64,000 bases of DNA. It comes from Spongilla lacustris (taxonomy: Eukaryota; Porifera; Demospongiae; Spongillida; Spongillidae). The position numbers and the translations under genes were made by a program. How positions within the stretch are numbered: position 1 is the first letter of the stretch; the number at the start of each line of letters is the position of its first letter. Under the pieces are notes generated by a model, which was given only the letters and a program-made list of their open reading frames with translations, was not told where the DNA came from and did not search any database. Below are positions 397 through 38,730 of the stretch, piece by piece. The stretch covers positions 2,602,633-2,666,632 of the forward strand of contig OX442421.1 of the NCBI GenBank assembly GCA_949361645.1, read 5' to 3'.

Positions 397-2380
397 CTCA
401 GCCAATGCTAGGGTGGAGGATGGTGTCTCCTCTGAAGGCTTCACCACTGTGGTGCAGCCTGCAGCCAATGCAGGGGCAGCAGCCTTTCTGGTAACCATGG
501 CACTCGGAAAGTTCCAAGGAGCAATTAGTGCTGTCACGCCCACCGGTTGTTTAATAACCAGAAGTCGCCTGTCTTTGGCGGTAGTGGGAACATATGCACG
601 CTTTGCCTCTTCAGCAAACCACTCCACAAAGGACGCGCCATACATGATCTCTAGTACGGCTTCTGCCAAAGGCTGAAGGGGGGCGGGTACGCACTTGCGC
701 ACTCCAGCTACACGATTTTAGCCAGGTCGTCTGTGTTCTGCATAATAAAGTTGTACCATCTTCTAAGCACCCCTGAACGTTCCTGACTCGATGACGCAGC
801 CGTGAATGAGTACACATTGCGCAGTGCAAGAGTCACCTTGGCCATAGATTAATAACCTTAGGTTATTAATCTAGGGTAGCGTCAGGTATGTTCGCCAGGC
901 AGGAGTGTTCGCCACCCTTCACTTCAAACGCGGCGCCAAGGCTTACCTAATGTCTTTATCCCTCGGCACAAAATGGAAATAATACTACTTGGAGTCTGTG
1001 TTTACGGCACACTGTTAAAATTATATCTACTCTTTCAGTTGTTCCAAAATAATGACGTAAAGTTAGCTACCTCAATTATCGGTAGAAATGGCGCGGTAAA
1101 CACCGCACAATTGCTAGCGAGTCTATTTGGTGCAAGTCAGTGTCTGTAAGGTATGTAATGCAAATTCGCTTAAAATCTTGTTATTACAGAAGAGCAGTTC
1201 TTTCTGAACAATGTACATTGTTTCATGTTTGATGAAACGTACTGGCTTTGGAACCAGGGAGGGTGGCGAACACTCCAACCGTAATTTACGCTGGTAGGTA
1301 GTAGTCGCCAGGGGTGGCGACTACTCCTACCTCATCAAATGAAGTGATAGTGCTTAAATTAGCAACCATTAGGCTCCAAAATGTATCTAATTGATTATGT
1401 GTAAGTATTATAAGTTGTGCATGTTTCGGAGGAGTGTTCGCCAGGGGGGGGGGGGGGGGGGGGGGGGGATGTTACCTTTCATTCGAATGCGGTCTTTTCA
1501 ATAGAAGGCCTAATCATATGAGTGCATTTGTTTTTCTGATCTGCTGTTTTTATTCAGTCAGAGGTTGTACTATTTCGGCTAATGCAGAGATAATTACTAT
1601 GGGCCTAGGCCTGCTACTTAATAGCTTACATAGGATATGTATGCATGAATGGATTTTTTTTTTGTTCTTTTTAAAATGTGCAAATCATGAAAGAATACAA
1701 TTTATCATATTGTAGTGTTCAGTAATGGAGTGACAGTATTTGAAGTATTTAACTGAGAGCATGGACTCAGCTTTCAAGGAAGCTTAAGTTATAGGGAGGG
1801 TCGTTTGACTTGCAATGCAGTGTCAAAGACATATATCACATAGTGTACCCCGTGCATGTGGGTACAAATCACAAACTGCAAATGTACTTCACATGCTGAA
1901 TGCATTGACCAGCCTCACCAGGATTTATTTTCCTTTGAATCAGACAATGACGAGGTTTATTTCTGCCCAGAATGTTATTACAAGGAGCCAGATGATAACT
2001 ATAAGACACCATGCCATTGCTGATGATTCTGCTAATATGATTTCCATTTATCTTTATATATATTTTACATAGTGAATGAGAAATTGACCTAGTTGAAATT
2101 TCCTAGAACAATAAATATACATGTATATACATGTATATACAGCTATCAATTTAGTGTGCAGTTTGACCTTAACTATATCAAACGTTGTATGTTACGTAAT
2201 AATTCATTCACACCTCATCCTGAGACTGCTTACTTGAGAATTTTTGTTGTTGTTGTTGCTCTAGTCTACCCAAGCTCAAATCACATGCTTCATCCTTCCG
2301 TGCACCAGTTCCCTCTTAACTACAACGATAATGGTCTTTCGCCTCGTCAATTTGGAGTGTTCGCCACCACCCTGTATACT

Positions 2381-2417
<37 letters not shown>

Positions 2418-3250
2418 CGAACACTCCAACCTCGACGTGGCGAAAGACCACTTGCAAAGGCAATTAATATTGGTACGTGGCACTATCTGATAACGAAAAA
2501 CAGGTACATATATGCTTCAATCCTTATGTACATACAATTTTGGTGGTAAACGAAGCGTTTATGTATGAATGAATGGTCGCCTTCCTATAACAAATGCTAC
2601 AATCACATAGTGAAGCTTTCCAGGGGTGGTTAAAAAGGCTGCTCCATACCTGATAACTTGGTTAAGCAATGTTCTGTTAAAATCCACCTTCCTTACGCTA
2701 CGTAACAACGAAATACAGGGGGGTGGCGAACACTCCAACCAGACGTGGCGAAAATACCAACCGCACTGGCGACTATACCAGAAATTCGCGTAATTGGATA
2801 AAACAGTTGTTTTCCTTCGCACGGAGCACGTTTTTGAATAAACGAAGAGGTAGTAGTATAGAGTGAAGGCTGACGATCTCTTGGAATCAGGTATGTTTAT
2901 ATAATCATCCCTCCTGTTTGCTGTATATTCAAGACAACCAACATCGGTACTCGCGGGTGGCGAACACTACCTACGCTACCCTATGCCTTGGCGGTGTGGG
3001 CGGCCCATCCCTTCTGCGCTGTGTACGCTTCTTGAACGGCCATCGTCACATCCTCCTCGCCCATATCTGGTACCTTTGGGGCGGATAGTGTAGCGATTAG
3101 CGACACGGACATACCAGACACTACACACTTCGGCAATGAGTTGCTGATTGGATGGATTGTATACAGGGTAGAATTTTCATGAAACTGCATCGCTATCCAC
3201 GTCTTGTTCTTCAGAAGCTGGGTGCGGGCAATAGCAGGAACACCGCGTCC
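397..3250 (-). CDS. Succinate-semialdehyde dehydrogenase (ALDH5A1-like), partial and interrupted
   Basis: SSADH oxidises succinate semialdehyde to succinate with NAD, normally in mitochondria, as the last step of GABA breakdown. Three minus-strand exons are readable. Exon 672-397 (92 codons, acceptor CAG) carries [35 protein letters not shown] and [15 protein letters not shown], the conserved NAD-binding region of the ALDH5 family. Exon 782-694 carries [16 protein letters not shown], which joins directly upstream in the family. Exon about 3100-2987 carries [17 protein letters not shown], further upstream; coding-like sequence continues to about 3250 ([11 protein letters not shown]). A 2.1-kb element sits between the last two. 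The catalytic Cys exon is off the left edge. Oddities: exon 782-694 has an in-frame TAG at 708-710 and seems to lack two G residues at its 3' end; exon 672-397 ends at a GC donor (GAG|GCAAGC). Pseudogene or consensus error cannot be separated here. The plus-strand reading of 374-676 is only the antisense shadow. Confidence 0.8.
845..873. repeat. Short perfect inverted repeat at element edge
   Basis: Thirteen-base arms (TAGATTAATAACC and its reverse complement) separated by TTA. The right arm ends on the TA that flanks the 874-2981 element, so it may be part of the target site or a remnant of another insertion. Confidence 0.6.
874..2981. mobile_element. TA-flanked transposon with reiterated GGTGGCGAACACTCC motifs
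   Basis: The ends are inverted copies of GGGTAGCGT-AGGTA followed by a TGTTCGCC stretch, and each end is flanked by TA, as expected for Tc1/mariner-type insertion. Inside, the word GGTGGCGAACACTCC or its complement recurs near 905, 1265, 1433, 2355, 2417, 2715 and 2957 in both orientations, several times next to long poly-G runs (1444-1468 and 2384-2417). No convincing transposase is visible, so it is probably non-autonomous or a nest of several copies. It separates two exons of the ALDH5A1-like gene. Confidence 0.65.
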
Positions 3251-3370
3251 TAGGAAGTTAAGCGCTTATTTTGCATTGTAATGGTTCACAATATGGTCAC
3301 GTGATGATTGGCGGCAAATTAATTTTAAACAGCGCGACAGAATGGAAGGTATTACATGTAACTGTCTAGT

Positions 3371-4277
3371 CAGGGGCGGATGCAGGATTTTGGTGAGGGG
3401 GGGGGTTCTACATGAATTATTGATGAAGGGGAGGGGCGCGCGCTTCGCGCGCGAAAATTTTTGTGGTGCGCATTCTAATCTTTCCACAGATTTTATTGGA
3501 CACTAAGGCAATCAACACCAACAAATGTGTGCCACTCGGTTACGTTCTGGTTTTACGGATTTAAATGGCTGTGTTGGAACATGTATGCGCGCTTTTCTTT
3601 GCTATTCAGTTGAGCCACTTAAAATTTACCATCACACTGATTCCGGCAGATGACCTACTTCAAGCAGTGAACAGTGTGACATTGGCGCGCGAAAACATTT
3701 TTTGTACACATTCCACAGATTGTACATGTATAGGGGGATTAGAAACGGAAAACGGAGGCAATATGTCATAACCAATAAATGCGTGCCACTCCGTTACGTT
3801 CTGGCTTCCAGGCTATTGTGGTTTTAAAGGGCTGCATGTGCTTCATCATATCGCAGATTTGCATTCGCCATTGTACGTTTACAAAATTACATGCGCCGGC
3901 TTAGTTTCTTTGCTATGTTAAAATTTACCATCATCTCTAAAAGCATGCAGCAAGGTGCATTCAACTTTGATGGGTACTAATACTAGCGCACCAATCAAAA
4001 TAACTGCGGAAAGAATCGCTCTATTACGTCCGCGGGTTAGCATTTTGGAATACATTTAGATTTACGTATAAATACCAGCCTACTACATATCTCGCAGTTT
4101 ACAGAATATAGTACTAACCAAGGAATAAGCAATAAGAATAAGCTGCTTAGCAACTTCACGGAGTGCACGCTGAACTCTCCGTAGAAATGTATAGCTCACG
4201 TGCGCCGATTATACATTAATTATTTCATATTTAGTTTCGAGGGGGGGGTTCCAACCCCCCCCCTGTATCCGCCACTG
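3371..4277. mobile_element. Non-autonomous hAT-like element with 5-bp target duplication
   Basis: The left end reads CAGGGGCGGATGCAGG and the right end reads CCTGTATCCGCCACTG, which are inverted. CTAGT precedes the left end (3366-3370) and follows the right end (4278-4282). The termini match those of the 11154-12409 element, which carries hAT transposase coding sequence, so this is taken as a deleted relative. No transposase remains. Confidence 0.7.
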
Positions 4278-26586: not shown

Positions 26587-27566
26587 CACAGGCACAAAAT
26601 CTGTCACCAAAGATCTACCTGCTAAAGAGATTCGATCTGTCACAATGAACCAAGCTACTGATTTCACTGATCGTGAATCTGTCACCACTGGATCAATCAT
26701 ACATGTAACTTCAAATTCAACTGAATCTGTTCCGAAAGACATAGCTTCTGATGCCATAGCCACCAAGTGCAACAAAGACCAAACTGGCACAGGACCTGTC
26801 ACCAAAGAGCTAGTTGCTGACACTGCTGGTATATTATTAAGATCTTAATAGTTTTAGTGACGGAACTGATTAATGTTTTGTTTTTTAGCTCTGGAGATTC
26901 TGTCTGTAACATCCCCTGAGGACTTAGATCAGCAGTAGGAAGATGATATAATTGGTAATCATGTACACATGTTATAATTACTGTCAAGTAATACTACTAA
27001 ACAAACAAGCATGCATGCATGGCTAGAAGTATAATATAGCTTATTTTTGATATTGTATTTTGCAGTGGGTTCCTTCACTCAAGGTATATGTATGGAAGGT
27101 ATGACATTCATTTTTCAAGATATGCACTAAAATGAATATTTTCTGTCTAGATTTGTCTCAAAAGAGTGCTGAAGTTATCATTTCAGTAGCATTTGGTGTC
27201 ATGATGATGAAGCAATTGACCAGACAACGACTATTAACAACTTTGAACAACTATATGGCTCAAGGAGATGAAAGACGATCACTTCAGTCTGCACCAAAGG
27301 CATCCCTTTTAAGACCCCTGGCTAAACTTCTTCTAGCAAAAAAAGATAGTGGTTCTTTCGGAGGGTGCCACACTCCAAAATGTTAAAAGGCAGGATGTTA
27401 AAGTTAATGGAACATTGTAAGTCATTTAGTACTGCACTGTCATTTTGCACTGTCGATACAAACGTTCAGTGTACATGTGATTTTGATTCGTATTACATTT
27501 TGATGTGATTGAGGTGGGATTTATGGAGTAATGTAAGTTTTAGATGCATTGTAAAATAATAAGAAT

Positions 27567-28015
27567 GGAATGCATTCCAGGAAGGAATGCAGGGTGGAAT
27601 GCATTGGAAACCAGGATGGAATGCAGGGTGGAATGCATTGGATTGGAAACCAGGATGGAACGCATTGGAAACCAGGATGGAATGCATTGGAAACCAGGAT
27701 GGAATGCATTGGAAACCAGGAAGGAATGCATTGGAAACCAGGATGGGATGCATTGGAAACCAGGATGGAATGCATTGGAAACCAGGAAGGAATGCATTGG
27801 AAACCAGGATGGAATGCATTGGAAACCAGGATGGAATGCATTGGAAACCAGGATGGAATGCATTGGAAACCAGGATGGAATGCAATGGAAACCAGGAAGG
27901 AATGCATTGGAAACCAGGATGGAATGCATTGGAAACCAGGATGAAATGCATTGGAAACCATCGGAAACTAGGATGGAATGTATTCCAAACCGGGGTGGGA
28001 ATGCATTGAAACCAG
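27567..28015. repeat. 22-bp minisatellite
   Basis: About 19 copies of GGAATGCATTGGAAACCAGG-AT with point variants. All three frames stay open on both strands, which produces long false proteins. Confidence 0.95.
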
Positions 28016-28425
28016 GATCCAGATGGTTTTTGAACAGGGGAATGCGTTATTTCCGTATAAAAACCACACCCGTTTTTTTTTTGTTCGGCAGAACCATACG
28101 TGCCTGGGAATTAACGGATTCCAGCACTAAAAACGGGTTAAAAACCAAGCGGAATTTGTTCGGGAAACCCATGGATGGATTCTTTGCTGGGAATCCTCTT
28201 CACTTTCCATGGTAAGACCCAGTACGGATATCGCATTATCCCAAGATCGAAAGCGATGCAATACCCAGTCCGGAAAAATGACCTTTCCCAGGGTGGGAAA
28301 AAAATGAAGAAATATTTGTTCGGCAAACCCATCGTCGGGTTTTTAGCATGGGAATCGATCGATTCCCATATTATTTCCCAAGGTTGGGTCGGCGAAAGTT
28401 TTCCCTGTGCTTTGTGGCATCCATA
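28016..28425. repeat. Degenerate repeat of TTGTTCGG-AAACCCAT blocks
   Basis: A block of roughly 165 bp beginning near 28155 (TTTGTTCGGGAAACCCATGG) recurs diverged near 28317. It borders the 22-bp array and may be its ancestral flank. No homology was recognised. Confidence 0.5.
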
Positions 28426-29038
28426 AATGGAGATGGAGCTGAACAGCACTACCATATATGGTCAGTTGTATATACTAAGTCTAGTTTCAGCATCAATTTG
28501 TTACTTCCATTCTGTGATTGTGTGCATTTACAACATCCTTTTCTTTATTATAGTCAGACCTCACCCACGGTTGTTTGCGGCTGGAAACTAGGTTTATAAT
28601 TAGAATATTACGGTACCTGTCCAAATAATTGTGAAGAAACACCTCATTACAGACACCTTATGTTTCAGAGCTCATAACACCTCAGATCAGCAGTAAAAAT
28701 ATATACTTATGTGTAGCATACAACACAACGTTTCAACCACTTTTATTTATAATGAACACGCATTTTTTAAATCGCACATGAAATTTATGCGCAAGCAGTG
28801 TTTACATCGCCACGCGGCACTTATTTTGGAAGGGCGTGTACAAGATCGGATATTGTGGACTTCCTGCACAACGGTTGGAGGTAAGACTAGGCTTTTCGTA
28901 AGTCAAAGGCATGCCAAAAAAAGAAGTGATGAACCACTTCTGTCGACGAATTTTCTGTCGCCCGAAAAGACCCATGTGTATTTTATGAATAATCGATGCG
29001 TGTTGTGGTCATTGCGTACATGAACATAGGTTAAAAGA
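28426..29038. other. Region upstream of RAG1-like gene
   Basis: AT-rich with no gene that can be supported. It should contain the promoter or the 5' end of the RAG1-like element, but no terminal inverted repeat starting with CAC could be identified. Confidence 0.4.
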
Positions 29039-32000
29039 ATGGACTACCACATTAAACAACTGCCGCTGCACTGCAGAGTATGTGGACAAAGGCTGATGAC
29101 AAGGAAGCATAAAAAGGAGATCCACGAATGACAATACTAATAATGCTCAAGTGTACCCTGAACACTTCTGCCATTGCTGTTACCATACAATGCAGAGGAT
29201 CATCAGTGCCCTGACACCATTTGTATGGGAAGCACATACCAATGAAGGGTGTAAGGTACATACTACATGTATATGCTTTTATGCAACATCATCAGTATAA
29301 ATCATACCACAGGTGTGTGAGCATTTCAGTTTCAATGCAAAAGGTCCAGTTAGGAAGCATACAGTTGGCAGAGGTCATCAACCTGGCCTCACACCAAACA
29401 TGTTAATTGCCCATCTTTGGAAGATTGCCCCTCCTCCAATCTTCTCAAGTGAGCCATACCCACCACTGGCAGGCCAAAACAGTGCCACTGTCCTGAAGGA
29501 GTTGAAGTGTGTGGTGTGTTCAAACATTCTCAAACAGCCCCTTGAACTGCCATGCCGTCAGCTGGCCTGTACCAGCTGTGTTGTGGAGCGAGTAGCAGCA
29601 TCAACCCCAGTGTGTCCTTGCTGCTTGGAGGATAGCTCCTTGGTACCCACAGAGATAAGACCAGCACCAAATGCTGTATTGCTCTTGTTGAAGGATGTAC
29701 TGGTACAATGTGTGGAGTGCCACAGGGATATGAAGGCTGGCTGTTACAATGGGCACGAGTGCACACCATATCTCACTGCTGGTGAAGAGAGAGAAGCAGC
29801 CGCACTGCTGAAGAGGGCCATCTCCACCAGCCCCGATCAAGCACGCATAATACAACTGCCTACAGGAGGAACAGTTAAGTGTAATCAATCTCACTTACAT
29901 TGTTATGACACACTAAACCATACCTTGTAGCCAATGACATTCATGCATGTAACCAAAGCCTGCCACCTGACTTCAGCTGCTTGTTCCAAGAGGCGTGCAG
30001 AGATGCACACAGCCAGAAGCATCGTCAGTGGAGGAGAGCCATCTGCCCTGATGGAGGGGGTACTCACTCTGAGTGATGAAGAGAGGATGTCTCTATTGCA
30101 GAAGGCAGGCATCACAAACATTGCAATCGACTCTGTCCAAGTATTGGCCATAAAAGTCGGCATGGCTATTCCCTGGAACGGTTTGAGACAACTTAGACGG
30201 TAAAGCATTACACAAAAACTATAAAAATAACCTACATATGCATTACTTGTCTAGGTGGCCGAAAGCGTCAGGAGTATCTCTAGCTGGGGAGCAGCGGATG
30301 CGCAACATTTGCAGGCAAATTGTGGGCGACAACTTAAAAGGAGAGATGGCTCTATTTTCATTTCCTCATCCTTCTGGTGGTGAAGAGCTTAGGGGAGCTC
30401 CTCTGGTTTATATTCCAGATCTGGTTCAGAAGGTTGTTGACCTCTTGGAAGAGAATGAAAGGTTAATTAGGAGGTCAAGGCATGAACCTTGCAAAATAAT
30501 TTTAACCCTATGTAGGACAGGACAGCTTACCTGGCATGATGGGGGTCATCCCTGCCAGTGAGGTGTGGTTAAAAATAGGAGGGGACAAAGGAGGCGGTTC
30601 GTTCAAGATGAACTTTCAGATTGTAAATGTTCCAGCGCCTAACTCAGTCCACAACACCTGCGTGTTTTGCTGCTTTGAAGCGGGCGACACTGTTACCAAC
30701 CTCCACATAGCACTTGACCGCTATAAGGATCAAGTTGCACATCTGCAAGGAATGAAATGGAGGTAAGAACAGTTAAAATCAAATGATTTATTAAACCTAC
30801 AGGCAATACACACTCAGGCTGTTCATGTGTGGAGACTACGAGTTCATTACTAGAATGTATGGGCTGTTAGGAGCAAGTGGTATGTGACTATTTGCATAGG
30901 TGCTAAACAAAGTGTACAAACATTGCACCTTTCTTATAGGATGCTACCCATGTTTGTATTGCTTGGCCCACCATCAGCACTTAGTAACACCTCTCTCAGT
31001 CAGAGGACCAGCTCCACCCAAAACATTTGAAACTATCACCATCAGCACTACATTGCTTCAGGGGTTGGCAAGAAACAAGCACAACACTTCTATAACTGCA
31101 TTTCAGAGCCTATTTTCAACATCCCCATTTCACAAGTATGTATAAATGAATTTGCCAAGAACTGTTTTGTATGATCATGCACATGCACACACACACGCTA
31201 GGTATGCCCACCTGGTCTTCACATCACTTTGGGCATCTTTACCAAGATTTATGGGTTGCTTGAAGACGAGTGTCATACCCTTGACCTTGAGCTGGCTCTG
31301 CACTCAAGAGACGATGCCCACTTCAGCTTCTCCAATTACAGCCATGAGCTGCAAAGGCTTCAGAAGCTACAAGCAGAGTTGGAGCAAGCTCAGGAGTCAT
31401 ATGATTTGTCGCAGCAAATGGCAACATATGTATCACTAGCTGTTGGGGAGAATGATCCAGTCACTGTGGATTTCTTCAAGCAATGTGAAGACAAGATGAA
31501 ATCTCTCAAACAACTTGTAAGCCATGCATGCAGTATAAAATGTGTATTGACACACCAATCACACTAGGAAACAGATGTAGCCAACTGCACAGCCACAGTG
31601 AAGAAGGGATTTTCGATCAAAGACGGCCCCTTTGTTAAGGAGCTGGACTCTGCATTGCAGTCCATAGGAGTACATCGCCAGCAATATTTTGGAGGTGCCT
31701 TTGTGGGCAATCATTTACACAAGACTCTAAAGGTACTAAAAATCTAAGTTTAGAAGTAGTGATCATGCAACTTCTTCACTTTACAGCTATCTAATATCCA
31801 GACACTGTGTAAGTCACTGGTTCAAACTGCACAAAACAGATTGCCCTATCGCGTTGTAGAGCTACAACAGCGTACCGACATTCTGGTCAATACATTTTGC
31901 ATGTTTGCTAGCTGCCACAACATATATGACCAGAATTTCATTGATGAAGCACAAACCTTTGCTCTAGGTGAGTATCATTTTTATGATTTCATTTGAACTC

Positions 32001-32336
32001 AAGACTATACAATTGATTTCTTCAGAACAAGCCATTGAACAGTTCATGGCGTACTTCCGGAAGTCCTTCCCAGAGGCAACAGTCCCCATTAAGATGCATA
32101 TCCTGGAGGATCATGCTACTACATGGGCTAATTCTACGCACATTGGATTTGGCCTCCTAGGCAAACAGGGGGCTGAGTCCAACCATGCCAAGTTTACACG
32201 ACTTGGCTTAGCCTACACAGCAGTTACTGACAAAGTAAAGCATTTGCTGTGCATTGTCAAAGAACACTTAATAAGCATTTCCCCACAAGTTTTAGCTGCC
32301 GTCCCCCCTCCACAAAAGAAGGAAAAAAATATTTAA
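29039..32336 (+). CDS. RAG1-like transposase (N-terminal zinc region, RING, catalytic core)
   Basis: Exons (approximate): 29039-29255, 29313-about 29900, about 29978-30199, 30255-about 30461, about 30515-30762, 30803-30879, 30940-about 31135, 31203-31516, 31568-31732, 31787-31968, 32026-32336. Exon 1: CRVCGQRL and YPEHFCHCCYHTM, like the RAG1 N terminus. Exon 2: a RING (CVVCSNILKQPLELPCRQ, then CTSC and CPCC) followed by VQCVECHRDM, as after the RAG1 RING. Core: GGDKGGGSFKMNFQI (first Asp, 30584-30586), APNSVHNTCVFCCFEAGD, LRLFMCGDYEFITRMYGLLG (second Asp, 30834-30836), CYPCLYC zinc pair, HITLGIFTKIYGLLEDE, YFGGAFVGNHLHKTL, and KMHILEDHATTW then KQGAESNHAKF (Glu, 32175-32177). These align in order with the RAG1 core, giving a DDE triad. 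Exon 1 has a frame break in an A5 run, and the exon joins near 30500 and 31135 do not keep frame as read. No RAG2-like kelch gene is nearby. Confidence 0.75.
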
Positions 32337-32399
32337 TCCTCACTCACATACGTCTTCAAACGGTGCACATCATTTATTGAGGTGTCTTCGTCATCATCC

Positions 32400-32560
32400 G
32401 TTAGCCTGTGTGCAGGTTATGTGCCATGACTTACATGTGTGTAGGCTATGTGCCATGACTTACATGTGTAGGCTATGTGTCATGACTTACATGTGTAGGC
32501 TATGTGTCATGACTTACATGTGTGTATGCATAGTCATGGCTTACATGTGTGTAGAAAAAG
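32400..32560. repeat. 27-bp tandem repeat downstream of RAG1-like gene
   Basis: About five copies of ATGTG-CATGACTTACATG-TGTAGGCT units. Confidence 0.85.
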
Positions 32561-32623
32561 GTTGGGAAAAATTATCTGTTTGGTGATGTGTTTTTATTTA
32601 TTTATTTTATTTATCTTTTAGTT

Positions 32624-32755
32624 TTATAGCAAGCTGGCGCCGATCAATATCTCTGAAAACTTTGAGGAGGAGTTATGGCGGTTGGTTGGTCGTGAGCCTA
32701 TTCGCTGTGACCTTGATCAGCCCCCACAGGCATGCATTTTGAAAAAGATCTTTTG
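32624..32755 (+). CDS. Unrecognised coding-like exon
   Basis: After a pyrimidine-rich acceptor (atcttttag) the frame FYSKLAPINISENFEEELW then RLVGREPIRCDLDQPP stays open with protein-like composition. It may be a fragment of another transposon gene. No family was recognised and no partner exon is certain. Confidence 0.3.
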
Positions 32756-33088
32756 TCAAGGATGCCAGAGACATATTATTTGGATGTGTGTTTGTGTGTA
32801 CTACTTTGCTTGAATATTTGGTATTGTGATAATACGAATGTTTCTGGTATGCAAAAACCACAAAAACTGTTATATGTCAATGCCAGAGCTGTAGCTAGGG
32901 AGTAGGTATTGTAGTGTGGCGTGCGAAGCGCGCAGTATAGCGCCGTGAAGCGGACTCGGGACAAGGCTGTGTTTTTTCAATGAAGAGTGTCTGGACAGCA
33001 CTGCAGGTGCAATTTGACCCCAGATTCAGAGTTGGCATCATAGGCGCTTCGCGCCTTGTAGCCCTAAACCCAAAAGCCCTCCTGATGT

Positions 33089-33300
33089 TTACATGCTTCG
33101 GCATGTAACTCTAACATGTTCTACTGTCCAAATCCCACCATTTTTATCCCAATTGCAAAAGACCTCAGGTGCCCTTGGCCATTCGCTCTCAGTTTGCTCA
33201 CAGATATCAGCAGGCGTCAGCAGAGCATCAAACATGATCACCAGTCCCTCCCATTCCTTCTCCAAAGGGTGTCCATTGCACAACAGCACGGCAATGCTGC
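33089..33300 (-). CDS. Unrecognised coding-like exon
   Basis: Minus-strand frame with NGHPLEKEWEGLVIMFDALL, ICEQTESEWPRAPEVFCNW and a Trp-rich end. Composition is protein-like and clearly better than the plus-strand frames over it. Function unknown; it may be transposon-derived. Confidence 0.3.
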
Positions 33301-33828
33301 CTCTGTATTGGGCACCTCAAGTTGCATGTAGTTTATATAGTTCGTATTGCAGAACAAAACTTCTAACTTGTCTAATGATGAACCGCTCTCCCTTACTAAT
33401 ATTACTTTGAGAGAGACATTCTCTGTACCTTGATTTGTATAGTGATTCACTACCATATGTCACTTCTATATATGGCATGTAGACATGTGTCAAATGCCAT
33501 CCAGAAATGTTCTCAAGCAATATGGAGATTGTGTTGCACCAAACACACAAATGCATAGACCCACACACACACCATGCACACACACCATGCACAAATCATA
33601 CGTTCATATTGCAGAACAAAATGAATTTATAAAAATATTTATAATTTACCAAGAAAAATTCTATTTTTCATAGCACCTTATTAACTTGTATGTGGTCAAA
33701 TCCATCCCACAAGCCATATTTGATGGAAAGTGTAAAGCCAGGCGCTATTACTGTTAACCCACACTAAATATTCATAGCTACCCTAAATCATCAGTCAGGT
33801 CCCCAGACTAAGTGTGATCATGTGGTAG

Positions 33829-34077
33829 AAATGGACTTAGAAAGAGGGAAATTCACTTGCTCAATTTGCCATGGATTTTCTGATCTAAGATCATCTACCG
33901 TCGCAAGACACATTGCTGCAGTCCATCAAAATGATCAGTCTGGAACGTTTACTTGCATGCGGCATTGATGGATGTCATGCTGTGTACACCACTGACCAAT
34001 GTCAGTCGTATCTGACCCACGTCTATAGAAGACACATGCAAGCAGTACACATATTGACAACACATGTACACATGCTG
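33829..34077 (+). CDS. C2H2 zinc-finger exon, frame-broken
   Basis: MDLERGKFTCSICHGF then RSSTVARHIAAVH gives a C2H2 finger, and a second Cys/His unit (CGIDGCHAVY then HVYRRHMQAVH) follows in another frame. The break falls on TGCATGC at about 33955, which looks like a four-base duplication. Paired fingers of this kind are common as first exons of animal DNA-transposon proteins (general knowledge); no transposase follows here. Confidence 0.5.
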
Positions 34078-34295
34078 TGATGTGTTGTAGTGCATGTGTG
34101 AGCAACGCACAGGGCACTTTTTGCGACTAAGGTGATTAACCCTTTACACTTTATATAGACCACACCCTTTGTTTATCTTCACGCGAATAGACTACTGTAG
34201 TGTATGGGTGAGAGTCATCAATGGCAGATATTATAGTACCTTTTATAGCATATTCATACTAGTATATTATCAATTGAAATTACGGTGTTGTCAAA

Positions 34296-35202
34296 ATGGG
34301 TTGCTGTGTATCCAAGCAAGGTGATATAGCCGTTATACAATTTGCATATCATTTGTCTTCGTTACTTGTATAAGTATTATTGCATGGTATATCGATATTC
34401 GCCTTAAATGTTGTATGCGCCAGCGATACAGTAGGTAGCGTTAGAATGTACGTTGCTATGAACTCTCAAGTCACACTATCAGCCCCGCATTCAGCAATTT
34501 GGTATGGAGGGTGGGTTGGCAGTCTGCGTAGAGCCGTATTCGAATAATGAAAAGGTCCTCATGCCATTTAAAAGTTGACCTACTTAATTCATGTGTGACG
34601 TCAGTGGCAAAAGTGGTAATTGCTGCCAGGCCATGGGGGGGGGGGGGGGAGGGGGGGGACCGCCCCGCCCCCCTCCCATTGCTCCAAACAGTACCTCCAT
34701 CAGTTTTTGAATCTGGGGCTGACAACTATATGGTGCATTCAGAGTTTTTGGTAGGATTTTTGTACTGAGTCAAATATTGTTGTGTTCTGACCCTTATGAT
34801 GTTATTATTAGATAAAACACCTTCTCCTCCTAAAAAGGTAAGCATTAGGTGCCATAAACAGTTTGTTTGATGAGTTGTGTTCACGTCAAGAGGGTACATT
34901 TTGCGGATGAAGATGACAATTATGGCTATATCGTGAGTACACTCCATATATACCTATAGTATATGATCAAACAAACTGTTAGTCTTATACTCACGATATC
35001 TACTTACTTTAGCTATTTTATTCAATATAGATGCTCATTGAAATATTCCATATCTCCACAGATAAACAAGATCAGTATCTATTCATGAATGTGATTACTT
35101 ATTTATTCATCATATCAGTTATTTATTTCCATGAAAAGAACATGAGGATGTTGGGCCTCTTTCTCTCTGAGACTCTCATCTCTCTCTCTCTAATAAAGTC
35201 CT
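34296..35202 (+). CDS. Small protein with MGCC lipidation start and PP1-docking motif
   Basis: Exons 34296-34320, 34812-34837, 34891-34932 and probably 35033-35202, all joining in frame. The N terminus MGCCVSKQ fits N-myristoylation at Gly2 with palmitoylation at the two Cys. It is followed by PPKKRVHFADEDD, which contains a canonical RVxF protein-phosphatase-1 docking motif in a basic-then-acidic context. The last exon encodes a hydrophobic stretch (ITYLFIISVIYF) and ends beside an AATAAA at about 35191. Together this suggests a short membrane-associated PP1 regulator of about 88 residues. No named family was recognised, and the last exon is the least certain part. Confidence 0.5.
34635..34649. 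repeat. Poly-G run
   Basis: Fifteen G followed by AGGGGGGGG, inside the first intron of the small RVxF gene. Confidence 0.9.
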
Positions 35203-35473
35203 AAATACCTCCCCCCACTCCCCTCGCAATGTTTTATGAAAGTAATATAATCAGGCTGAATAAATATAATGATTGTGCCCCATGATAACCCAATATAAGA
35301 CTGATAGTCAAATAACATTGGGGCAATGTGGTCATCAAAAAAAAAGAAAAAGCAGCAAACGTCAAGAGAATGCATTCTTCATCGCATAGGCATAGGCTGC
35401 CATAACAGCAGCTCCAATGATCCCTCAGTGCTGCAGTCAGTGGAAAAACAGAGGATGTCCCCATACCAGTCAC

Positions 35474-37013
35474 CTGCCGTACCAACAGGCTCTCTTGGGG
35501 GTAGACATGTTTCTTTAAGCGTGTTACTAGGCGATCAGCATACTCATTAAAGCCACCCTAACAGGGAAACAAAATTGAGTTTGAGTTCACACTACACACA
35601 TCTCACTGACACCTACACCCTGTATCAGCACCCTGGCACTATCACTGCAAGTAGACTATGGTTATAATGTGTAGCCCACTTCAAACATTTCAAATGCTAA
35701 TTTTTCTCCATCATAGGTTACACTTTCCATCCCTACTACTTTCACTGGACAAGCTGGAAACATTGTGAATGTTTAGCTGCTGCTATATGAAAATTCATTA
35801 TTTGTGTATGCCCCTGATTTATTGCGGTAATTGTCACCTTTTTTGTGGGAATTTTTCAACGCAACCTTTCAAACAGAACCTTGGAAACTGAAGCCCTAGG
35901 TGTGGCGAAGCTTCGTAGCTATCTTAAAAGCTAACCGTTGCGTAAGTCACTTGAGTCCAAAATTCAACATACCTTTATAAGCTTCATCTACTCGTTCTAC
36001 ATCTCTCTTCCTCTTCCTGAAAGCTGGAAATTAAAAGTTGCAAGTAAATAATCACAATCTAAACACAAGACTCATTATGTACCAGAACAGGAGAAGACAG
36101 TTACGAATTATTATTTTGCTGTAGTGAGTTATGTTCTTCCATAAAACTGCAACTTATGAACTTACATGGACATACTTCTGAAGCAGCTTCTTCTAGCAAC
36201 TTCTGAGTAGTGGTTACATGTTGTTCGCATTTGTCTACATACGCTCTGCATTGCTTTATTTCCCATTTGCATTCCTTTATATAGCCTTCGTCCCTTTCCT
36301 CTTGAGCTTGAGCAACTGCTAAATCACTTCTAGCATCTGCTAATCTCTTATTAGCAGCTGCTAAAACACTTCTAGCATCTGCTTCAGCAGCCTTTACTAT
36401 AGTATCATCATCATCCACTATATCCTGCTAAAGAAATACAAATAACAAATACAAAGGGACAAGTGTGTAATCCCTAAATTTACCCCAGTCACCTGTTTCT
36501 TAAAAGAAACAATGTCCAGTCCCTTACCATTTTATTTTTTATGAGTACACATCTACACACACATGTACATATACAGACCAATATGTTAGCACAGATGTAT
36601 ATACACAAAGCACTATCTAACCTTGTGGGTATTTGACGATTATGGGCATGACCACTTGTGTTACAGGTAAGGCCTAAGCTTACTACTAGTTAAGATGTCA
36701 GGACCCATGTCAAGCATAAAAATGACATCTATCTATGCATTTCCACAGGCCCCAAACATAGTATGTTGCCTTCATGTAGTCAGGCCCCTCCCTTAGATAA
36801 CGGGACCCATACCAAGCATAAATGTCATCCATGCAACGGTACAGCTTAAGCTCTCAACATAGTTAGCTGCCCTCCCCAAGCCCAACCCAACCTCCTATAT
36901 GATATGTAGTCTGACACACACATGGACATGGATGGATAAAGCATTACCTGGACATCTTCCTGGTCTTCATCATCCACCACTTCCTGGACATCTTCCTGGT
37001 CTTCATCCATCAT
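35474..37013 (-). CDS. Acidic coiled-coil protein, unrecognised
   Basis: Start at 37013. Exon 37013-36948 encodes the near-duplicated MMDEDQEDVQ / VVDDEDQEDVQ. Exon 36424-36166 encodes DDDDTIVKAAEADARSVLAA and a long Ala/Glu/Lys/Gln-rich helix (LADARSDLAVAQAQEERDE) with regular Cys residues, a likely coiled coil. Exon 36023-35973 adds FRKRKRDVERVDEAYK, and exon 35557-35474 adds GFNEYADRLVTRLKKHVYP. The phase of the last joint does not fit, so a small exon may be missing between 35973 and 35557 or the frame is broken. No enzyme motif is visible; a scaffold role is only a guess. Confidence 0.5.
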
Positions 37014-37082
37014 TTTCAACCACCTACAACTGAGCAGGACGCAATTTGACCAAAGAAATTGGCACAAATCAAGCTGTCCCAA

Positions 37083-38730
37083 ATGCTCCTTACCATGATT
37101 CTGATTATAGTTGTATTATACTTAAAAATAACTAAATAAGATTAAAAATTAATTCCCCTGGAAACAGGGGGGGTTGGTTCCAGGAGGCAAAATAGTTCCT
37201 GAACCAGATATAGATATGCAAATCATGAAGCTATATACAGTAATGGACAACAATGTCCTATATAAAACGATATATGTAGTAATTTACACCTATTTGTCAT
37301 ATTGTCATGGGTGCTAATGGAGATTTGTTATTAAAGGAAATTCATGCATGTTTGTGTGCAATAAGGTGTGGTCACCTGACGTTCATGTATATGTATATTT
37401 GGGTCTGGGAACAAGACTATGGTGGTCACTTGACCAGACATACCCTGGTTCCAATCCAATTCCAAGCAAGTTTTCAAAGAAGAAACAAGATCAAGAAAGA
37501 TGATAACTGTTATTTAATAACATGTTGAGAACCATCATGCCAGCCCCCTTACCATGGGACTATACCCTCATCATGCCAGTCCCTGCTATAAATAGCTGAA
37601 ATTCAAATCTTATTTTAACTACCCAGCTTCCAACCTGTCCCTCCAAACACCATCACCTATTTTATGTGGTTCTAAAAAAATAAAATAAAAAGCCTCACCT
37701 TTGAAAATGTAGTTATAAATGTTCAATAATAAGCGATCAATCCAAAACTAAGTCTCCAAACAGGAACACAGGATCTAGCAACCTCCAGACTTAACAGACC
37801 AGTAGTCACCAAACAGGAACAAATGAACCAGCAACCTCCAAACTGAACGAATCACCAAACAGAGACACAGGAACCGCTGAACTGAACAAATAGTCATCAT
37901 ACGCTGAGCAGGATGCAATTTGCCCACACGAATCAAGCTGTCCCAAATCCTTACCGCAATTCAAAAAAGGTACTCAACAAACTTTAAATGTCCTATGACA
38001 ATACAAACCCCCCCCCACGCCCACGCCCCCTTTGGGCGCTAGTGAAAATGAGGCACACCCATGCAATTTAAATAGCAACCCCACACACATTTAAAAAAGA
38101 CCATGAGTGCTCTGCTACAATGGTCACTGAACAGAGTAACCAGGCAGAACAGAGGAAGCAGCTGTCAGTTAGTACAGGCTTTATAAAAACACGCACACAC
38201 TCCACTGTTATATAGCCTAGCTAGCTGGCGTGGCACACATGCATGTACCCACAAAACAAGCTTCCCGTCCCCAGACATACACAAACCCACACCCCAACAT
38301 CCTAACCATGATGCAATAATAGCAAATAGCAATAAAGCCTCATCCGAGCTAGCCTCACCAAGCTCTCAATCCACGACCAATTCTTCAAACAGGAACAGAG
38401 TAACCAGACAGGCAGTAGTCACTAACATAGTAGCTTTTAAATATTGCACACATCACTTGACCACCCCCCAAACACCCCCACACCCTATCATCACCTATTT
38501 TATGGTGGTTCTAAATAAAGCCTCATGGGAGCCTTACCTTAGGTATCACAAGCTGAATGTTCCAAAACCAGGGACAGAATATACCAGTGGCACTAGTGGG
38601 AAAAGCACAGCAACCTCTAGAGCTAGAGTGAAAAAGAGAAAGTAGATTAAAAAGTAAAAATTCTTTCCGACATAGAACGAAGATAGCCTAAAGTACGCTC
38701 GCTAGGGCAATATAAAATAATACACACACA
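37083..38730. other. Gene-poor stretch with a local duplication
   Basis: No gene could be supported. A segment around 37030-37100 (GCAATTTGACC, ATCAAGCTGTCCCAAATG) recurs diverged at 37912-37970, and phrases like CAAACAGGAACA recur between 37750 and 38400, suggesting old tandem duplication. Confidence 0.45.

Follow-up and report, generated by a model that had tools for sequence, protein, structure and literature searches.

A probable Chapaev-group DNA transposon with the domain order of RAG1 in the freshwater sponge Spongilla lacustris

RAG1 cuts antibody genes in vertebrates. A 64-kb stretch of contig OX442421.1 from Spongilla lacustris, a freshwater sponge and so an early-branching animal, carries a gene of 11 exons (29039-32336, forward strand) whose product resembles RAG1 from its N-terminal zinc region to its catalytic core; this stretch is referred to below as the window, and all positions are counted within it. 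We conclude that the locus is very probably a dead copy of a Chapaev-group element (CMC/Transib superfamily), an autonomous DNA transposon of the cut-and-paste type. The kind is already known from Chapaev elements that carry both a Chapa region and a RING domain, and the sponge family is a further member of it. A preliminary description made from the window alone had proposed a full-length RAG1-like gene in a sponge-like genome. The host was correctly recognised, and the exons do follow in the proposed order, but the copy in the window is frame-broken, truncated at its 3' end and one member of a multicopy transposon.

A recently mobile transposon family

When the genome was searched with window positions 28600-33000, 55 matches were returned; 40 of 603 candidates were scored, so that copy counts are lower bounds. 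The preliminary description had suggested looking for other copies, and at least 17 long ones (L002-L018) exist besides that in the window, with 93-99% identity, each covering no fewer than 3,694 of the 3,806 query bases lying within the element. Most of them share a left boundary corresponding to window position 28566, with flanks that differ from copy to copy, and the right boundary lies about 0.6 kb past the equivalent of window position 32405. Full-length copies are about 4.55 kb long, starting with CACGGTTGT and ending with ACAGCCGTG, which gives CACGG...CCGTG ends. Both ends are present in 16 of the 18 copies examined, and 13 are flanked by exact 4-bp target duplications. CAC-type terminal repeats had been anticipated and were indeed found, in the sister copies, whereas the 5-bp duplications expected with them are 4 bp in these 13 copies, a 5-bp match occurring in one.

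Fifteen of the copies (L003-L017) share 98.5 to 99.98% mutual identity at aligned bases, and nine of these keep an open frame of 946 residues, implying that the family has been mobile recently. There is no room for a RAG2-like gene in the intact element L003 outside the transposase gene, where the longest open stretches are 139 residues on the 5' side and 88 on the 3' side; the lack of a RAG2 gene, noted earlier for the window, thus extends to the element itself. Both ends of L003 also carry, within their first 250 bases, an inward-facing 12-mer, AAGAAACACCTC, which may be a candidate transposase-binding site; any shared 12-mer at all arose in 6 of 2000 shuffles.

The left end is far more widespread than the long copies. 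Allowing up to two mismatches, its pattern has 443 matches in the genome, compared with none for the reversed control. Twelve copies of a commoner left-end variant (L031-L042) were sampled and represent a diverged sister subfamily, mostly shorter, in which identity to L003 is 66-80% for most aligned stretches; none of the 12 matches L003 positions 1469-3790, most of the core, by blastn. Nine of the 12 have a candidate right end, at a distance of 2.6 to 4.6 kb from the left one, and seven of these nine show 4-bp duplications. Such shortened relatives, sharing the left end, are candidates for mobilisation in trans. At least 116 matches to the Pfam family DUF1280, the only one to match the window protein above cut-off when both its halves were scanned, are present in the genome.

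Seventy homologues of the window protein were collected, and an alignment-based protein search added 7; 61 of the 70 bear Ephydatia muelleri or 'Em' names. The best of them, P0001, aligns with 89% of the window protein at 92% identity and, over 820 residues, is 97.3% identical to the protein of the intact sister copy L003. For so high an identity between Spongilla and Ephydatia muelleri proteins, horizontal transfer and constraint are both possible causes. PF12560, which we take to be the importin-binding family of RAG1, is precomputed on 6 of the 70 homologues. A protein of the chytrid fungus Phlyctochytrium arcticum (P0155, 1237 residues) gives a weak match to the family profile (E 5.9e-7, 3% of the query covered).

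Likeness to RAG1 and assignment to the Chapaev group

Judged from sequence, the likeness of the window protein to RAG1 is beyond chance, and it resides chiefly in the N-terminal half. With phmmer, the joined protein matches the RING-ZDD region of RAG1 (E 9e-7). A family profile built from 45 of the 70 homologues matches RAG1 with E 7.3e-16, the core appearing only as a sub-threshold second stretch, and profile-profile comparison with RAG1 (12 of 78 homologues) yields a match of 99.4% (E 9e-22) that begins in the Chapa region, spans RING and ZDD and extends as far as the beginning of the core. When family and RAG1 were each divided into eight blocks, the collinear block scored best in seven of the eight rows, so that the RAG1-like domain order claimed earlier holds. 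The Chapa and RING-ZDD blocks score 71.9 and 86.2, against about 8-19 off the diagonal in their rows; in the NBD row the collinear block scores 15.1 and another block 17.8.

The catalytic core is a different matter. A profile of the core alone gave four matches up to E 10, none of them RAG1 or Transib, and its profile-profile comparison with RAG1 was not significant (0.8%). The profile search proposed in the preliminary description therefore recovers the N-terminal half of RAG1, but for the core alone no match to RAG1 at the sequence level. Predicted models of the homologues P0001 and P0051 nevertheless have a RAG1-type core fold, as had been supposed, and RAG1 is the best structural match, ahead of Transib, by a small Z difference of about 2 and with a longer chain. 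On the structural alignment the P0001 core is 14-15% identical to RAG1; it is 33-38% identical to those of five other family members, four of them from echinoderms. Profile alignments place the catalytic Asp, Asp and Glu in register with those of RAG1, in agreement with the earlier proposal, although for the Glu the alignment is weak. The C-terminal block likewise aligns weakly, on its GN block (GNHxHK with GNxxRK of RAG1), and for the block holding the first Asp a global alignment did not succeed. PF12940 has no match in the genome, and since it has none in 14 control genomes either, this does not establish its absence.

Could the element instead belong to the RAG1/RAG-like (TransibSU) lineage, which would make it a direct cousin of vertebrate RAG1, and have lost RAG2 or never had it? 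The collinearity of seven of the eight blocks, the 99.4% match of the N-terminal half and the ranking of RAG1 ahead of Transib in structure all speak for such a placement. The ranking turns on a small Z difference and a longer RAG1 chain, however, and two features point elsewhere: the duplications are 4 bp rather than 5 bp, and the core, not recognisable as RAG1 by sequence, shares 33-38% identity with those of the five family homologues. Membership of the RAG-like lineage, as proposed earlier, is very improbable, the duplications and the core sequence both pointing to Chapaev.

Chapaev elements are described as making target duplications of 3-4 bp and as having CAC/GTG ends together with the motifs C(2)C, LH and H(4)H (PMC4079192; this and the other publications are cited here from excerpts). 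The sponge element has all of these, with its CACGG...CCGTG ends, 4-bp duplications and the motifs CLYC, GLHITLG and HILEDH. Duplications of 5 bp are typical of Transibs, and a Chapa region followed by a RING was described in 2015 for two Chapaev subgroups (PMC4411706); in the sponge element the same pair is recognised by homology to the RAG1 N-terminus. It is the length of the duplications, together with the combination of Chapa, RING and core, that leads us to assign the element to Chapaev.

Several points weigh against this assignment. C(2)C and H(3-4)H motifs are common to EnSpm, Mirage, Chapaev, Transib and RAG1, and CA..TG ends mostly to the first four (PMC12730594), so that motifs and ends cannot alone decide the family. 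Chapaev membership is drawn from hallmarks in published descriptions rather than from a tree with Repbase references, and the triad is placed by profile alignment rather than by atom-by-atom superposition. The three remaining two-ended copies depart from the 4-bp rule, one having a 5-bp match, one a match at three of four positions and one no match. Transposase activity, finally, is deduced from sequence.

The copy in the window and its gene

The features of the window copy, with splice sites verified against the sister copies, are as follows, all on the forward strand.

28566-32405, forward: transposon copy, Chapaev-type; about 0.6 kb of the 3' end, 3' terminal repeat included, is gone
28566-28590, forward: 5' terminal repeat, CACGGTTGTTTGCGGCTGGAAACTA; left boundary, identical in sister copies with other flanks
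29039-29255, forward: exon 1; start codon and Chapa zinc region (CRVC at 29072-29083, YPEHFCHCC); frame broken here
29313-29873, forward: exon 2; RING from 29508, post-RING zinc region (ZDD-like, about 29706-29763), linker
29931-30199, forward: exon 3; occupies the place of the RAG1 NBD and the start of the DDBD
30255-30461, forward: exon 4; DDBD/pre-RNase H region
30516-30762, forward: exon 5; RNase H strands, GGDKGGG with the putative first catalytic Asp (codon 30584-30586), PNS, FEAGD; DUF1280 match; frame broken in the window copy
30803-30879, forward: exon 6; putative second catalytic Asp in (MC)GDYEF (codon 30834-30836)
30940-31135, forward: exon 7; C(2)C pair (CLYC) at 30951-30962; frame broken in the window copy
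31202-31516, forward: exon 8; LH motif at 31217-31222 (within GLHITLG); a coiled-coil-like insertion begins
31568-31732, forward: exon 9; GNHxHK block, aligned with GNxxRK of RAG1
31787-31967, forward: exon 10; helical portion of the core
32026-32336, forward: exon 11; H(4)H (HILEDH) at 32097-32114, putative catalytic Glu (KQGAESNHAKF, codon 32175-32177), C-terminus and stop

The motifs singled out in the preliminary description are all present: CRVC, YPEHFCHCC, the RING, the post-RING Cys/His residues, GGDKGGG, PNS, FEAGD, MCGDYEF, the CxxC pair at 30951-30962 and KQGAESNHAKF. The Chapa-like zinc region runs CRVC...YPEHFCHCC...WEAH..GC..C, and PNS and FEAGD lie just downstream of GGDKGGG.

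The transposon copy in the window is dead. Its coding frame is interrupted by indels in three places (exons 1, 5 and 7), and the copy ceases to match the sister elements at 32405, so that only the left end is kept. Both frame breaks and truncation are hidden in the window alone and were revealed by comparison with near-identical copies; likewise, a search for inverted repeats around the window gene showed no terminal repeats because this copy lacks its 3' end. The locus is duplicated on the same contig (L002, G000:C7:708104-714792), where window segments 27187-32293 and 36134-37615 recur at 97-98% identity without the intervening 32294-36133. The duplicate carries the dead transposon copy with most of its indels, implying that these are probably older than the duplication.

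Domesticated RAG-like genes have been reported in sea urchins (PMC9885083), and the window gene might by analogy be a host gene kept for a sponge function. A frame broken in three exons, a lost 3' end, a duplicate with most of the same indels and many near-identical copies with target duplications make this extremely improbable for the window gene; another locus could have been domesticated.

Two minisatellites lie close to the copy. One, with a 27-bp unit in about 5 copies, occupies 32407-32554 and begins two bases past the last matching transposon base; the other, at 27577-28014, has a 22-bp unit in about 17 copies.

Comparison with known elements

The sponge element resembles the Chapaevs with Chapa and RING (PMC4411706) in its CAC...GTG ends, 4-bp duplications, C(2)C, LH and H(4)H motifs and DDE core, and in having Chapa and then RING before that core. 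It differs from these Chapaevs, with which it was compared through published descriptions, in its sponge host and its 11 exons. Our survey of the literature found no sponge element of this type among the titles and abstract openings listed, with subscription journals and Repbase Reports lying outside it.

In contrast to vertebrate RAG1, the element is a transposon with 4-bp duplications, lacks RAG2 and has a coiled-coil-like insertion, in addition to the low core identity given above. RAG-like, ProtoRAG and TransibSU elements have 5-bp duplications and a RAG2-like gene (PMC4411706, PMC7204232), and the sponge element has neither. The Cys-rich CCGHC tail that ends invertebrate RAG1-like proteins (PMC7204232) is also absent from the L003 protein, which ends PPPQKKKKNI. 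Excerpts of PMC4411706 describe TransibSU without the RING that the sponge element carries, and canonical Transib (HzTransib) with 5-bp duplications and no identified domain beyond the core. N-RAG-TP of Aplysia, the type to which the preliminary description had tentatively assigned the gene, shares with the sponge element a RAG1 N-terminal-like region within a mobile element. By its description, however, which in the excerpts of PMC8355894 covers RAG1 N-terminal-like sequence only, it differs from the sponge element, which adds a DDE core.

Proposed mechanism

The direct basis for a mechanism comprises the ends, the 4-bp duplications, the gene structure, the open frames of sister copies, the predicted fold and the domain order; we infer the chemistry, any hairpin step included, as well as dimerisation, RING ligase activity and the mobilisation of shortened relatives. 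The intact family encodes one 946-residue transposase from the 11 exons. Its C-terminal, RAG1-like DDE core would most likely bind the CACGG...CCGTG ends as a dimer and cleave them, using a two-metal active site of D-D-E type carried on an RNase H fold, and the cut ends would be joined to the two target strands at points 4 bp apart. By analogy with RAG1, the N-terminal Chapa and RING-ZDD regions would probably serve in dimerisation, protein contacts or ubiquitin transfer.

Origin of the two halves of RAG1

How can the N-terminal half be so much more like RAG1 than the core is? RAG1 might be a chimera, in which a Chapaev-type Chapa-RING-ZDD half was joined to a Transib-type core. Such an origin, compatible with the sponge element being a Chapaev, is an idea that we hold tentatively and consider rather unlikely. 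To compare the N-termini, zinc-ligand columns were removed, leaving 172 columns, and the sponge sequence was set against six other family members and six of seven RAG1 sequences, the row without a detectable RING (P0080) being left out; the within-family mean omits two close pairs. Identity of the sponge N-terminus is 17.9% with the family members and 16.6% with RAG1 (random, 5.5%), the bootstrap 95% interval for the difference being -3.0 to 4.9. The N-termini are thus equally close, while the cores are not, with 33-38% identity inside the family as against 14-15% to RAG1. Within RAG1 itself the N-terminus is less conserved (36-48% identity) than the core (72-77%), so that with one common history the contrast should run the other way, which favours a chimera. 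The N-terminal comparison may, however, have reached saturation already among family members, and this would bring the two figures to the same level; the N-terminal tree is a trifurcation of sponge, other members and RAG1 (66/72 support). It has also been argued that the fusion of Chapa, RING and core goes back to a common ancestor (PMC4411706); an alternative published account derives RAG1 by fusion of an N-terminal element with Transib (PMC8355894).

The sponge family brings to this question a recently mobile transposon with the domain order of RAG1 in an early-branching animal, and the two accounts, full architecture in the ancestor (as set out in excerpts of PMC4411706) and later fusion (likewise of PMC8355894), can be tested against each other. 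If RAG1 is a chimera, the sponge family would be a living relative of the element that donated its regulatory half. Among the titles listed in a literature survey, none concerned biochemical work on a Chapaev transposase, and the near-identical copies with open frames are candidates for such work.
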